The position numbers were made by a program, and so were the translations under genes. The notes below the pieces were generated by a model that worked only from the letters and a program-made list of their open reading frames with translations, was not told the DNA's origin and did no database searches. A stretch of DNA of 64,000 bases from Eunapius fragilis (taxonomy: Eukaryota > Porifera > Demospongiae > Spongillida > Spongillidae). The DNA lies in NCBI GenBank assembly GCA_963681505.1, contig OY811978.1:9519845-9583844 (forward strand), written 5' to 3'. Shown in pieces: positions 5,531 to 64,000 of this stretch. Position 1 is the first letter of the stretch. Each line of letters opens with the position of its first letter.

Positions 5531-5788
5531 TTATCACACTTGCGTGAAGTTTTGTTTACTTACTACTACTGTTTGTAAACCTTCTATCATCGTGGTAAGA
5601 TGTGTGCAGGCGTAACACTAAACAGAATCAGCAGCTGCTTCTCTATTAACTCGCTGCGTGTTGATATTCATCAATTCGTTCTTACAATACGGCATCACGT
5701 GAGGGTTTCTATATAGTCGTTATCATGTGCCAGTACGGTACTTCGATATAAAACTGGACTGAGAAAGAGAAGAAAACCGAAAAGAAAA

Positions 5789-5971
5789 ATGAGCGGAAAT
5801 GAGGAAAAATATAATCAGCTTTCTTCGAAGGAGGGGCACGGAACAGATGAGGGCGCGACATCCGCGACTACGAAACACGTGAACACTAGAGACAGAAAGC
5901 AACGTACTAAAGGACGAGAAGATACGGATGGCGGACCTGTTGCGGCACCGCCGGTGTGCTGTTTGCTTTAA
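5789..5971 (+). CDS. Short hypothetical ORF ending in a CaaX-like CCLL motif
   Basis: A 60-codon ATG ORF. It is a hydrophilic, Lys/Arg/Thr/Gly-rich peptide beginning MSGNEEKYNQ and ending CCLL. A TATA-like stretch (cgatataaaactggac) sits about 40 bp upstream, and an A-rich leader precedes the ATG. The duplicate at 33700-33879 keeps an open frame of 59 codons with the same start, the same stop position in the alignment and the same CCLL end, despite many substitutions. A C-terminal CCLL could act as a geranylgeranylation (CaaX) signal. The product is unrecognised; it may instead be the 5' exon of a longer gene or a chance ORF in repeated DNA. Confidence 0.35.
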   Translation: MSGNEEKYNQLSSKEGHGTDEGATSATTKHVNTRDRKQRTKGREDTDGGPVAAPPVCCLL

Positions 5972-56093: not shown

Positions 56094-58242
56094 TCAGACT
56101 TCAGAGGCCATGACAGCTCTGGTGTAAGGGTCCAAGTTTTTATCTACACGTCGGCCTTCAAATACAAGCTTTGACTGTTCGGCAAAGAACTGGCACATCT
56201 CTGGCTCCTGTTGAATGATGAAGGCAAACTGCTCGTAGGTAATGAACCATTCAGCATGTGTGCTGCATGTCTGGATTGCTTCTGAACCAATAACCCCACC
56301 ATTGCCTGTGCCCTCAAATGCATTACTGTCAAGTACAGGGCCAGTAACAGTATCCTTCCCTTGAGGGCCAGTAATAGCATCATTCCCTTGAGGGCCTGTA
56401 ACTGCATCATTCCCTTGAGGGCCAGTAACAGTATCCTTCCCTTGAGGGCTAGTAATTGCATCATTCCCTTGAGGGTTATTAACAGTATCTTTCTCTTGAA
56501 GGCTAGTAATAGTATCGTTAGTGTGCTGAGGTGTTTCCACTGTTTCCACTACACACTGTTCAACACATGGTTTGCTCAAACAATCGCGAATACCTGACGC
56601 CAGACCTGATGATAAGTCTATGCCTGGAGCTGGTGAGGGTGTGGAGGTCACAGGTGTTGATGTGCCTTCAACCAAACCAACACTGCTTGATGATCCACCT
56701 TGTGATTGTCCACCAACTCCCACCACCAGTGCAAGGTCATCCTTGCCTTCTTCCTTATCACTAGCTGCCTCTGCTGCCCTACCTTCGTCACGATTCCTCT
56801 CACCCAGCTTGAGCATAGCATTGGCCACCAAACCCATCACATGGAACAGCTGGGGGTGGTCTGGGTACCCTTCAAGGAAAAGGAACATAGTCCTACAGAG
56901 TTCAATGTAATCTGACTGCATGGCAGGAAGAGACAAAAGATGAGGGGTGGGGCACAATTAGACCTACACACACACACACACATATATACATGTACATGTA
57001 CCCACACACATTCACACATACAGCATATCACACCTCAGTAAGGGGTAAGGGGCTGAAAGAGGTGTCCAAAGGCGACTGAGGCTGGTCTTTCCTTCCCACA
57101 CCAGTAAACAGTAGTGCTAAGGACAAGAAAGAACAGTAACCACAATTACCATGACAACCACAGCATATATGCCATCAGAATGAAACAGTAACCTCAGGAC
57201 AGAGAGCATAACTAGTACAGTGGCTGTACCTGAGTCATCTTCAGAAACATGCAAGTGGACCGGCTCTTTATCCTCAGCAGGTGCTGAATTTGAGCTTTTC
57301 CTCGCAGGCTCCACCCCCTCCACATCTTCATCTGTGCATGTTGTGTGAGCATGTTTGATGGGAGGGTGGGGGGAGGGAGGGAAACAATGGTATACTGTAC
57401 ATATAAGCATGTACTGTAAGTTTCCTTTCAACAGCACAATCTTCATTGCCATTCAACTCTACTTATCCCTACTTATCCCTCCATAACTCTATTTATCCCC
57501 CACCCAGTTCTATTTATTCCCCCCACCCAGCTCTACACATGTATTTTAACCTGTGTCCGAGTCACTTGATGGCATAGAGACTACACTGCAAGTGGTTGCC
57601 ATAGCAGCAGGCAGTGGTGAGGAAACCCTGCTGGTAAGCTTGGAACAATGGAGGCTGAAGAGAAGCTTGAGCCTCTCCTGGAGTGTGGCTCTGGTCATGA
57701 CAAAAAAGGCCTTTGAAAAAACACTGAAGTTCATCTGTTTAAGGTTCTCTGTATCTGTGAGCTGGTAAGCATGTGGGGAGATGAGGTAGATGGTGTGGGG
57801 AGGAGGGAAATGGTGAGCATGTGGGGAAGAGGGAGATGAGGTACATGTTAGGAGGTAGATGGACAGAAGAAAAAGGTGCTCTTTGATCCATTGAGATAAT
57901 GTACGTGTACCATCATTACACACACACCTGCACACACATACACACACCTGCACACACACACCTGCACACACACACACACCTGCACACACATACACACACC
58001 TGCACCACACCTGCACACACACCTGCACACACACACACCATGCGCACACACACGCACACACACGCACACACACACACACATGCACACACACGCCACGCAT
58101 GCACACACGCGCACACACACACCACGCACACACACACATGCACACACACACACACGCACACACACACCACGCAAACACACACGCACACAACACATGCACG
58201 CACACACACACACACATGCACACACACACCACGCACACACAT

Positions 58243-58303
<61 letters not shown>

Positions 58304-59751
58304 GCAAACACGGAGCTGGATGAGCGTGCACACATGCGGGTTGATTAGCATGAGAAACTAACCCTGAACAACCGTTTGGCCATGAGGTTAGAGTGATCCC
58401 CCAGTCCCCATGGAGACAAACACTTGAACAGCATCACAAAGCGTTGCTGATCAATGGTGGGCTCCAGACGTCCGTACGAAGTGGCCACCATCTGGAAGTT
58501 TGTCTTCCTCCCCCAAAACACAGCCTGCCTATGGCCCTCCTAAAATGGCACAGAGGAGACAACACACATGAGATCACATCTGAGCAGACTGGTGTAGCCA
58601 TTGCATGTGACATCTGATGCGTACATACATGCACACGTATACAGAGGAGTTCCTTATTTCAGCCGATTTAAAAACACATTACAGCGGGGATATGTGTGTG
58701 TCAAGAGACACATGCTGAGTGTGTACATACTGCCATGAAGGATGGAGGGGAGGAGAGAGGGGGGAGGGGATAGCAGAGTCCACTGTTACCAAGGCGATTG
58801 GGAAGAGGGGTGGGAGGATGGGGGCGGGAGAAAGAGGGGCACAGTATACAGATCACGCACACAAGGTACATGTGTACCTCAAACCACTTGTACAAGGTCT
58901 CCATCTCCTTGCGAGAAAATTTGCTATGCTCCAGACAGGCTCTAAGCACAGTTCTCTTGTTATTGTTGATGATGTTCTGTGGGGATAGTAGATGGTGGAG
59001 TGAAAGGATGTGATGAGGGTGGTGGAGATGAGAGGATGTGATGGTGAGGGTGGTGGAGATGAGAGGATGTGATGGTGAGGGTGGTGGAGATGAGAGGATG
59101 TGATGGTGAGGGTGGTGGAGATAAGAGGATGTGATGGTGAGGGTGGTGGAGATGGGAGAATGTGATGGTGAGGGTGGTGGAGATGAGAGAATGTGATGGT
59201 GAGGTGGAAAAGGGGATGTGATGAGGGTGGTGGAGATGGGAGGATGTGACGGTGAGGGTGGTGGAGATGGGAAGATGTGATGGTGAGGGTGGAAAAGGGG
59301 GATGTGATGAGGGTGGTGGAGATGGGAGGATGTGATGGTGAGGGTGGTGGAGATAGGAGGACGTGAGGGTGATGGAGACAGGATGTAATGTGAGGGTGGG
59401 GGAAATGAGAGGATGTGAGTGAGGGTGGGGGAGATGGAAGGATGTGGTGGAGGTGACACAAAAATGAAACACTGCTCATAGGTACAAACTTTTAAGGTTT
59501 TCCCTAACCACAATATAGTGCCTATGTGTACACAACTGACCTATAGCTGATGATACTACACACAACTGACCTAGCCGATAATAAATGCTAAATGTATGTG
59601 TATGTGTGTGCACGTGTGGGTAGGGTATGTACATTTTGTGCATGTGTGTATGTGGGTATGAGGTACGAGAGTATGCGTATATGCGCATGCATACAAATTA
59701 GAAATGGAAGTCACAATGGCACACACAAACATACACACATACACACATACA

Positions 59752-59804
<53 letters not shown>

Positions 59805-62341
59805 GTCCTACTTCCAGACGTGCTACATTCCTCATCTTTTCAATGGCATCATTGGTGATGAATCCGAAGGACTCATAAGCTTGCTTAATAACATCCATGA
59901 TATCCATGTTAGAAGGACTCTGATGAGTAGAGGGGAAACATGTTAGTGTTAGAGGGACTCTGATGAGTAGAGGGGAAACATGTTAGTGTTAGAGGGACTC
60001 TGATGAGTAGAGGGGAAACATGTTAGTGTTAGAGGGACTCTGATGAGTAGAGGGGAAACATGTTAGTGTTAGAGGGACTCTGATGAGTAGAGGGGAAACA
60101 TGTTAGTGTTAGAGGGACTCTGATGAGTAGAGGGGAAACATGTTAGTGTTAGAGGGACTCTGATGAGTAGAGGGGAAACATGTTAGTGTTAGAGGGACTC
60201 TGATGAGTAGAGGGGAAACATGTTAGTGTTAGAGGGACTCTGATGAGTAGAGGGGAAACATGTTAGTGTTAGAGGGACTCTGATGAGTAGAGGGGAAACA
60301 TGTTAGTGTTAGAGGGACTCTGATGAGTAGAGGGGAAACATGTTAGTGTTAGAGGGACTCTGATGAGTAGAGGGGAAACATGTTAGTGTTAGAGGGACTC
60401 TGATGAGTAGAGGGGAAACATGTTAGTGTTAGAGGGACTCTGATGAGTAGAGGGGAAACATGTTAGTGTTAGAGGGACTCTGATGAGTAGAGGGGAAACA
60501 TGTTAGTGTTAGAGGGACTCTGATGAGTAGAGGGGAAACATGTTAGTGTTAGAGGGACTCTGATGAGTAGAGGGGAAACATGTTAGTGTTAGAGGGACTC
60601 TGATGAGTAGAGGGGAAACATGTTAGTGTTAGAGGGACTCTGATGAGTAGAGGGGAAACATGTTAGTGTTAGAGGGACTCTGATGAGTAGAGGGGAAACA
60701 TGTTAGTGTTAGAGGGACTCTGATGAGTAGAGGGGAAACATGTTAGTGTTAGAGGGACTCTTGATGACATAACACTGTTATAGAAGCCATAAAAGTTCAC
60801 TTCTGTTAACTTTACGGGCAGCAATGAAGACATCACAGTATTTGATATCAGGTTAGGTTTGGTTTTGTAAATTCAATGCTGACAATGTTCATTTGTTGTG
60901 CAGTGTAGGATGACAGCAATCAAATAATGCAATCATGTAGAAATAATTACTGATATAATTGTAACCCAGTTGCCCAGTAGAGATTGCATGTGCCTAACCA
61001 GTGAATAGTTAGGCACATGCACGTACTAACTATTCACTGGTTAGGCACAAGCACGTGCTAACTATTCACTGGTTAGGCACATGCACGTGCTAACTATTCA
61101 CTGGTTAGGCACAAGCACGTGCTAACTATTCACTGGTTAGGCACATGCACGTGCTAACTATTCACTGGTTAGGCACAAGCATGTGCTAACTATTCACTGG
61201 TTAGGCACATGCACGTACTAACTATTCACTGGTTAGGCACATGCACGTACTAACTATTCACTGGTTAGGCACATGCACGTGCTAACTATTCACTGGTTAG
61301 GCACACACGTGCTAACTATTCACTGGTTAGGCACATGCACATATTAACTATTCACTGGTTAGGAAGATGCATGTGCTAACTATTCACTGGTTAGGCACAT
61401 GCACGTGCTAACTATTCACTGGTTAGGCACAAGCACGTGCTAACTATTCACTGATTAGGCACGCTTATGTACTAACTATTCACTGGTTAGGCACATGCAA
61501 GTACTAACTATTCACTGGTTAGGCACATGCACGTGCTAACTATTCACTGGTTAGGCACAAGCACGTGCTAACTATTCACTGGTTAGGCACATGCAAGTAC
61601 TAACTATTCACTGGTTAGGCACATGCACATGCTAACTATTCACTGGTTAGGCACACACGTGCTAATGGTTAGGCACATGCATGTACTAACTATTCACTGG
61701 TTAGGCACAAGCACGTGCTAACTATTCACTGGTTAGGCACAAGCACGTGCTAACTATTCACTGGTTAGGCACAAGCACGTGCTAACTATTCACTGATTAG
61801 GCACGCTTATGTACTAACTATTCACTGGTTAGGCACATGCAAGTACTAACTATTCACTGGTTAGGCACATGCACGTGCTAACTATTCACTGGTTAGGCAC
61901 AAGCACGTACTAACTATTCACTGGTTAGGCACATGCACATGCTAACTATTCACTGGTTAGGCACACACGTGCTAATGGTTAGGCACATGCATGTACTAAC
62001 TATTCACTGGTTAGGCACAAGCACGTGCTAACTATTCACTGGTTAGGCACAAGCACGTGCTAACTATTCACTGGTTAGGCACAAGCACGTGCTAACTATT
62101 CACTGGTTAGGCACAAGCACGTGCTAACTATTCACTGGTTAGGCACAAGCACGTGCTAACTATTCACTGGTTAGGCACATCTTATGTTTGCTCACAGCAT
62201 ACATGAACAGTGCTCACATCCCATGTGTACATTGCAGTACCCGTCCACATAACTCCCTAGGTACCTACATACTCACTATCTAATTGCGTACATCTGCTCA
62301 GCACAGCCTGCCCACACACACATTCACACATGCACACACAT

Positions 62342-62419
<78 letters not shown>

Positions 62420-64000
62420 TGCCTCTATCTTCATCACGCATAATGCGTTCAGGCTTCTTTCCAAGGCTGGATAGGAACCTGTTGAGCACTGCTATGGCCT
62501 CTGCCTCGTCCTCCAGAGAGAGTACCTGGTGCTCTATAGACTTCAAGATGGAGAGAGCTACCTGAAAGAGTGCCTATGGAGGGGAAGGGAGAGGGAGGGA
62601 GGGGAGGGAGGGGAGGGAGGGAGGGGGAGGGAGGGAGGAAGGGAGGGGAAGGGTGAAGAAATGAGGGAGGGAGAGGGAGGGGAGGATGAAGGGATGAGGG
62701 AGGGAAGGAGACGAGGGAGTGGAGGGAAGGAAAGAGAGGGAGAGAAGGAGGAACGTTGGGAGGGATATGTGAGGTGAGCATTACATAGGGCTAATACCCC
62801 AAACATGCCCAAATCCTTCCATGCTAGGGAGTTGTACCTTGGGTCCATCAATGAAGACACAGTCTATGATAATGAGAGCCACCTTGTGGTCGAGCACAGA
62901 GAAGAACAGTGTGAGGAACCAGCTTAGGGAGATCATGGAGAGTATCTGCAGCCTGTCCTTGAGTAGTTTGTAGAGCTCAGGGAGGTGCTTCTCTGTCAGG
63001 CGCTCAAACACCACTGTGGAGGCAACCAATGCACATGTGGCAGCAAAAGGTAATCTGTGTGCTTGTATACATGTTCATGTACATGTATACATACATGTAC
63101 ACATCATACATGTATGTGTACATGTATGTGTACATGTATGTGTATACGTGTACATGCACATGTACATGTACACATATACATACATGTACACATGTACATA
63201 TACATGTACACGTACACATACACGTACATGTGTACAAGCACACACACATACACGTACACATGTACAAATCTGGGGACACATGCTGACCTTGGTCAATCTG
63301 GGGACACATGCTGACCTTGGTCAATCTGGGGACACACGCTGACCTTGGTCAGTCTGGGGACACACGCTGACCTTGGTCAATCTGTGCACCAACAACTTTA
63401 GTGTTGTAGTACTCCACCAGGACACGTTCACAGATGGCAGACAGGAGCCAAAATGTCTCCTCTTCTGAAGCATACACCAGCAGCACTGAGGCAACTATAT
63501 TCATGGCTTGACAGTATCCTATAAAAGGTGTGCAATAATAAGGTATAAGAACATGACATGTACATGTAGTACTGTACGTGACTGGTACCACACACTAACT
63601 GGTACCACACACCTATGGATGATGGTAACACACACCTATGGATGATGGTACCACACACCTATGGATGATGGTACCACACACCTACATGGGTGATGGTACC
63701 ACACACCTATGGATGATGGTAACACACACCTATGGATGATGGTAACACACACCTATGGATGATGGTACCACACACTAACTGGTAACACACACCTATGGAT
63801 GATGGTACCACACACCTATGGATGATGGTAACACACACCTATGGATGATGGTAACACACACCTATGGATGATGGTAACACACACCTATGGATGATGGTAA
63901 CACACACCTATGGATGATGGTACCACACACCTATGGATGATGGTAACACACACACACCTATGGATGATGGTAACACACACTCACCTATGGATGATGGTAA
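56094..64000 (-). CDS. TBC1D8/TBC1D9-type Rab GTPase-activating protein, C-terminal eleven exons
   Basis: Exons with GT-AG sites and consistent phases: 64000-63985 (partial), 63518-63372, 63013-62838, 62561-62418, 59919-59803, 58976-58878, 58539-58363, 57761-57551, 57331-57230, 57116-57034 and 56915-56094 (stop). The TBC domain reads [17 protein letters not shown] (the YxQ glutamine finger), [19 protein letters not shown], then [30 protein letters not shown] and [13 protein letters not shown]. It is followed by the TBC1D9-specific helical region (SYESFG-like, [17 protein letters not shown]) and a degenerate EF-hand region ([19 protein letters not shown]) lacking the calcium-ligand pattern. 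The last exon has a repeated Pro-Gln-Gly linker and ends in [17 protein letters not shown], as in the family. The Arg finger and GRAM domains must lie beyond the window. The predicted role is GTP hydrolysis on Rab GTPases in membrane traffic. Confidence 0.9.
56338..56520 (-). repeat. 33-bp coding minisatellite in the last TBC exon
   Basis: The exon encodes about five tandem variants of an 11-residue unit ([22 protein letters not shown] and similar). The frame is kept because the unit is a multiple of three. It lies in a linker between the EF-hand-like region and the conserved C terminus. Confidence 0.9.
57919..58301. repeat. Intronic CA-rich microsatellite
   Basis: An imperfect (CA)n tract with cacacctgcacac units, in the intron between exons 58363 and 57761. 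The ORFs across it are artefacts. Confidence 0.95.
58985..59455. repeat. Intronic 31-33-bp minisatellite next to exon 58976
   Basis: About 13 variants of gagggtggtggagatgaga + ggatgtgatggt. On the transcribed strand it is pyrimidine-rich (CACCACCCTCACC), which may extend the polypyrimidine tract before the exon. Confidence 0.9.
59725..59802. repeat. Intronic (CA)n microsatellite abutting a 5' splice site
   Basis: The donor of exon 59919-59803 is GTGTGTG; the GT repeat begins at the splice site itself. Confidence 0.95.
59920..60762 (-). repeat. 40-bp minisatellite, about 20 near-perfect copies, containing a 3' splice site
   Basis: The unit on the transcribed strand is TTTCCCCTCTACTCATCAG followed by agtccctctaacactaacatg. 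The first part equals the polypyrimidine tract and CAG acceptor of exon 59919, and the following bases match the exon start (agtccttctaacatgg). Copies are essentially identical from 59939 to 60762. Confidence 0.97.
60986..62180. repeat. 32-bp minisatellite, about 37 copies
   Basis: The unit is ctaactattcactggttag + gcacaagcacgtg with atg/aag and cgt/tgt variants. The array opens with a perfect 13-bp inverted pair (gcatgtgcctaac…gttaggcacatgc). It lies in the 59920-62417 intron. Confidence 0.97.
62312..62417. repeat. Intronic (CA)n abutting the donor of exon 62561-62418
   Basis: As at 59803, the GT repeat on the transcribed strand begins at the 5' splice site (aat|gtgtgtg). Confidence 0.95.
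62577..62765. repeat. Purine-rich GGGA tract in intron
   Basis: About 190 bp of GGGAGGGA-type purine sequence on +; on the transcribed strand it is a very long polypyrimidine tract just upstream of the 3' splice site of exon 62561. Confidence 0.9.
63060..63268. repeat. ACATGT-rich simple repeat in intron
   Basis: Alternating cacatgtacatgtatg units. Overlapping ORFs are artefacts. Confidence 0.9.
63269..63380 (-). repeat. 28-bp tandem repeat, four copies, containing a 5' splice site
   Basis: The unit on the transcribed strand is ttgaccaag|gtcagc followed by gtgtgtccccaga. The real donor of exon 63518-63372 (caag|gtcagc) is the first copy; three more copies follow in the intron. Confidence 0.93.
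63604..63984 (-). repeat. 23-bp tandem repeat, about 16 copies, containing a 5' splice-site-like junction
   Basis: The unit on the transcribed strand is taccatcatccatag|gtgtgtg. The inferred donor of the upstream exon at 63985 is the same catccatag followed by GTGAGT; the array copies carry GTGTGT instead. Confidence 0.9.

Follow-up and report, generated by a model that had tools for sequence, protein, structure and literature searches.

Tandem repeats that cross exon–intron boundaries have been described in a small number of genes. In the parts of the amphioxus reports consulted here, tandem minisatellite-like units termed mirages extend across exon–intron boundaries at the 5' or the 3' ends of exons (PMC3087553), and occur in the genes for Adh3 and the globins BflGb6 and BflGb9 (PMC3087553) as well as TnC and PGBD5 (PMC3902484). 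The units measure 10-72 bp in Adh3 and 150-160 bp in the globins, and two haplotypes of BflGb6 differ in having 6 and 3 units (PMC3087553). Inner units are homogenised while those at the edges are not, and RT-PCR suggests that regular splicing is undisturbed (PMC3087553, PMC3902484). According to the sections consulted of three further reports, a tandem duplication across an intron–exon boundary gave rise to a new intron in the RdRp gene of potato (PMC4974935), internal tandem repeats at exon–intron boundaries of human segmental-duplication genes are described as a source of novel introns and alternative transcripts (PMC2812944), and tandem alternative splice sites place acceptors 2-12 nt apart (PMC2878309). 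Here we describe an array of this general kind in a sponge gene.

The window analysed is a stretch of 64,000 nucleotides (C8:9519845-9583844) from the genome of Eunapius fragilis (219 Mb, 24 contigs). Judging from its predicted protein, the host gene on the minus strand is TBC1D9-like. The joined exons match the RabGAP-TBC domain with an E value of 5.6e-30, the match covering residues 1-125 of 291, and they resemble a partial TBC1 domain family member 9 from Geodia barretti (57% identity over 84% of the query) and Em0006g1402a (53% identity over 64% of the query), a name which we take to denote the sponge Ephydatia muelleri. The exon of interest (59803..59919, minus strand, 117 nt) starts in phase 0 with the codons AGT CCT TCT AAC ATG and encodes 39 residues that align with TBC1D9-type proteins. 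Protein homology and phase place its start at 59919, with the junction CATCAG/AGTCC. The upstream exon (62418..62573, minus strand), identified by homology and frame, ends in RDEDRGN and terminates at AAT/GT, also in phase 0. The intron between them (59920..62417, minus strand) thus has the donor AAT/GT and the acceptor CAG/AGT. Tandem-repeat analysis indicated that the donor of the upstream exon is supplied by a (GT)n tract (62313..62417, minus strand), and that of the 117-nt exon by a (GT)n-rich repeat (59720..59802, minus strand) beginning where the exon ends, at 59803. Since both donors sit at the starts of (GT)n tracts, donor choice is ambiguous for these two exons too. Elsewhere in the open frame of the gene, a 27-bp repeat (56337-56516, 6.7 copies) codes for 9-residue repeats such as GPQGNDAIT.

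A reading made from the sequence only had proposed that the 3' splice site in front of this exon is amplified in tandem. TRF called a repeat of period 40 with 21.5 copies and 99% matches at 59907-60767, and cutting the minus strand in register between 59921 and 60760 gave 21 blocks, all 21 letter-identical in this one assembly. Each unit consists of the intron 3' end (CTAAC, pyrimidines and CAG) and the first 13 bases of the exon with one change, the exon start AGTCCTTCTAACA appearing in the unit as AGTCCCTCTAACA. Read along the minus strand, the order is AGTCCCTCTAACA, then CTAACATG, the pyrimidine tract and CATCAG. The amplification of a complete 3' splice site together with an exon start was thereby confirmed, as was the identity of the units. 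The estimate of about 20 copies becomes 21, and the array, which had been given as 59803..60762, shrinks to 59921..60760, because the former span includes the exon itself. The acceptors of the array define first exon bases at 59919 + 40k, with k from 0 to 20. The edges depart from the inner units, by one base on the exon side and by CATCAAG at 60759 on the upstream side. At least 24 exact matches to the motif AGTCCCTCTAACAY were found in the 219-Mb genome, 21 in the array and 3 at C8:8.2 Mb; a control with the reversed pattern gave 0 matches genome-wide. Among the units, 0 differences in 800 compared sites bound the divergence at about 0.4%, a value that gives no date because homogenisation would have the same effect. 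The array looks either young or homogenised.

The strength of the repeated acceptors was then scored with a matrix built from 29 hand-picked acceptors of the same genome, a small set. The focal acceptor is middling, ranking 19th of 29. Between 62390 and 59919, 170 AGs were scored, and the 21 acceptors of the array, at 5.92 each, occupy the top 21 places; the next scores 5.51, and CATCAAG at the upstream edge -3.47. A CTRAY motif at -50 to -15 was present in only one of the 29 acceptors, namely the focal one. As the exon start holds CTAAC, each copy brings along both an acceptor and a branch-point-like motif for the next copy. Each copy also reads CAGAG, which provides a second, weaker AG 2 nt further on.

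The sequence-only reading had further supposed that every third copy keeps the frame. With the canonical donor, however, the full frame is obtained from only 1 of the 21 acceptors, the exon-proximal one at 59919, and a TAA lies within 51 nt of any of the 20 upstream acceptors. Copies 2-20 lead to one common 16-residue tail, from which that of copy 1 departs at the final residue. The truncation falls after the stretch matched by the RabGAP-TBC domain. Use of the proximal acceptor would give an exon of 117 nt and use of the upstream copies exons of 157 to 917 nt. For copies 1, 2 and 20, the three that were measured, 106, 146 and 866 nt separate the stop from the end of the exon. mRNAs with such early stops are predicted by the usual rule to decay, and taking into account these distances, decay of decoy-joined mRNA would be expected. 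We also tested 8 donor positions in the (GT)n of the upstream exon. The frame was kept with the proximal copy only for donors at +0, +6 and +12 nt, with copy 1 only at +2, +8 and +14 nt, and with no copy at +4 and +10 nt.

Two further arrays, both on the donor side, were identified in the same gene (minus strand). A 28-bp array of 4.2 copies (63267..63384), seen by TRF and in the sequence, opens the intron after exon 63372-63518; its unit comprises 13 exon bases and the donor GT of this exon, and each unit also carries CCCCAG before the 13 exon bases. A 23-bp array detected by TRF (63600..64000, continuing to 64683 beyond the window; 45.6 copies in all) fills most of the 1169-nt intron 63519-64687, after the exon ending at 64688. 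It contains 41 CATAG/GT, the true donor among them, and of 42 AG/GT donors tested in this intron, 2 keep the frame. At the protein level, the only level compared, the ORF P0034 of a close relative does not, after these two exons, read like repeats of this sort.

How common repeated junctions are was examined in other TBC genes of the genome; the kinase family was dropped as a comparison set, since its search yielded no loci and mostly uninterrupted domains. The search listed 33 TBC-domain matches, 2 of them in the focal gene, and 21 of the other 31, at 14 loci, were examined. Junctions were picked by eye (21 acceptors and 22 donors, 43 in total) and counted as positive when the junction 24-mer recurred at 19 or more of 24 positions. 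None of the 43 was repeated, compared with 4 of 16 picked junctions in the focal gene, one of which is plain (GT)n. Setting that one aside, 3/16 against 0/43 gives a Fisher p of 0.017 with unequal searched lengths (161-408 vs 408 nt); when the search is held to 160 nt, the 23-bp array no longer counts, leaving 2/16 and p = 0.07. Two near-identical TBC genes on contig C13, about 60 kb apart (L074 and L075/L076), entered the set, so that the 43 junctions are not all independent. The contrast between the focal gene and the other TBC genes is thus suggestive only, and given 0/43 in the latter, the repeated acceptor is not general in this genome. At four of the loci (L077, L083, L084 and L086), the pyrimidine tracts ahead of acceptors are themselves CT-rich tandem repeats.

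Upstream of the array, the intron continues with a core (60761..61007, minus strand) and a 32-bp minisatellite (61008..62180, minus strand; TRF, 37.3 copies, 89% matches). In a genome search the core was present in at least 2 copies, here and at C8:8200281-8200511 (89%), and a further short array of the 32-bp unit was noted on contig C9 (L071 4948-5092). The second core belongs to L009, a locus 1.38 Mb away on the same chromosome, where the 32-bp array, the core and three units (37, 29 and 42 bp) recur as a partial copy that stops 4 bases into the exon start. What comes after the 32-bp array at L009 is CCCTCTAACAC, reverse-complementary to a segment of the unit as read on that strand, and we considered a mobile element with inverted ends. 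This was rejected since the sequence from CAC onward resembles the terminus of a high-copy repeat, leaving 8 bases to chance: among the 54 matches listed for the flank (5761-5800), 36 lie elsewhere in the genome and cover its outer part only, mostly query positions 1-40. The relative provides a second comparison. Its ORF P0036 (87 residues) differs from the window by 2 residues in the 39-residue exon, and reads as a repeated exon start in which 9 residues recur in frame. The relative seems to carry the same acceptor in tandem on a stop-free unit of 27 bp, the unit length and the CAGs being deduced from protein; this hints at a change of the array between relatives. Ahead of its repeats, the ORF reads unlike the core. 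The array probably grew from a unit of 27-29 bp; in the simplest story, an ancestral unit of this length (15 exon and 12-14 intron bases) would have been followed by a 40-bp unit that spread to 21 copies.

We propose, with a probability of about 80%, that the array is a mirage-type minisatellite read as intron, in which the proximal acceptor gives the full protein and the other 20 are decoys. A short stretch over the intron 3' end and the exon start would have been duplicated in tandem and amplified via replication slippage or unequal exchange. The array would be treated as intron, the acceptor at 59919 leading to the full protein and any of the 20 decoys to translation ending after 16 residues. 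Only the proximal acceptor adjoins the exon body, and it is likely that splicing mostly takes this copy by exon definition, any leakage being removed as nonsense mRNA. One could instead regard the array as a regulated platform on which use of upstream copies yields one truncated TBC protein or decayed mRNA, copy number tuning the ratio. The tail shared by copies 2-20, from which copy 1 departs in the last residue, and its position after the RabGAP-TBC-matched stretch would suit such a role. We nevertheless consider this improbable: the relative differs in unit length and, it would follow, in the effect on the reading frame, and amphioxus mirages are reported, in the portions available, without disturbance of regular splicing (PMC3087553, PMC3902484).

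Copying between the two loci on chromosome 8 may have run in either direction, so that a copied or mobile segment (32-bp array, core and units) could have brought the array in, taking the place of the intron 3' end and supplying the first bases of the exon. The partial copy of the whole arrangement, which breaks off after 4 bases of the exon start, speaks for such an origin, as do the unlike stretch before the relative's repeats and the location of the residues SPSN within a variable linker. Yet matches number at least 2 for the core and the unit motif occurs at at least 2 places, neither inverted ends nor a target duplication was found, and the repeat of the relative has no core adjoining, which makes units and core separable; we regard this origin as doubtful. 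It is very improbable that the assembly is in error and the real array far smaller or larger. Identical units are hard to count, but an array of 840 bp is small by long-read standards and the ORF of the relative repeats the same exon start.

Under the proposed reading, a single intron offers 21 acceptors whose local sequence is identical; this removes sequence strength as a variable, and the locus would be a natural test of position, exon definition and transcription order in the choice of a 3' splice site. In cis-competition experiments, such acceptor duplications were made by hand. There is also a slight chance that the array acts as a splicing switch tuned by copy number. Since any of the 20 decoys leads to practically one truncated product, array length would then set the full-length output and leave the alternative product unchanged, while the in-frame 9-residue unit of the relative would add peptide repeats instead.

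The array was compared with several known classes. Recursive splice sites carry AG/GT, which restores a donor after splicing, and here all 21 copies read CAG/AGTCC instead. Introner-like mobile introns, from which the array also differs, are present as many dispersed copies; at least 2 matches to the core, the motif at at least 2 places and the 32-bp unit at a third were found. As in NAGNAG tandem sites, judged from the part consulted, several acceptors stand close before one exon (PMC8055015), but the spacing is 40 nt rather than 2-12 nt, which sets the array apart from that class, and it is repeated 20 times through array growth. The human boundary repeats likewise involve minisatellite expansion with units of about 30 bp, and in the passages seen their mean is about 4 units (PMC2812944). 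In the potato RdRp gene, as far as the report was seen, the duplicated stretch likewise extends from the branch site over the tract and 3' splice site into exon bases; there a single duplication produced a new intron, whereas the sponge has a long array inside one intron (PMC4974935). The literature searched, of partial coverage, yielded no sponge case of such arrays. By its structural features, the array is to be filed as a mirage minisatellite. Like the amphioxus mirages, as far as their reports were consulted, it spans the boundary with a unit made of intron end and exon bases, its inner units are identical (21/21) and its edges deviate, and either exon end is affected in the gene, by the acceptor array and by the 23-bp and 28-bp donor arrays. 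The differences are the sponge host, the 40-bp units, the 21 identical copies and the three boundaries in one gene. The kind of repeat is therefore one already described in amphioxus, and what is new is the sponge host, the additional pair of arrays at donors of this gene, and the ORF of a close relative in which a 9-residue unit recurs in frame. This would extend mirages from amphioxus to a sponge and suggests that the class is wider and has been overlooked, or else that such arrays arose independently.
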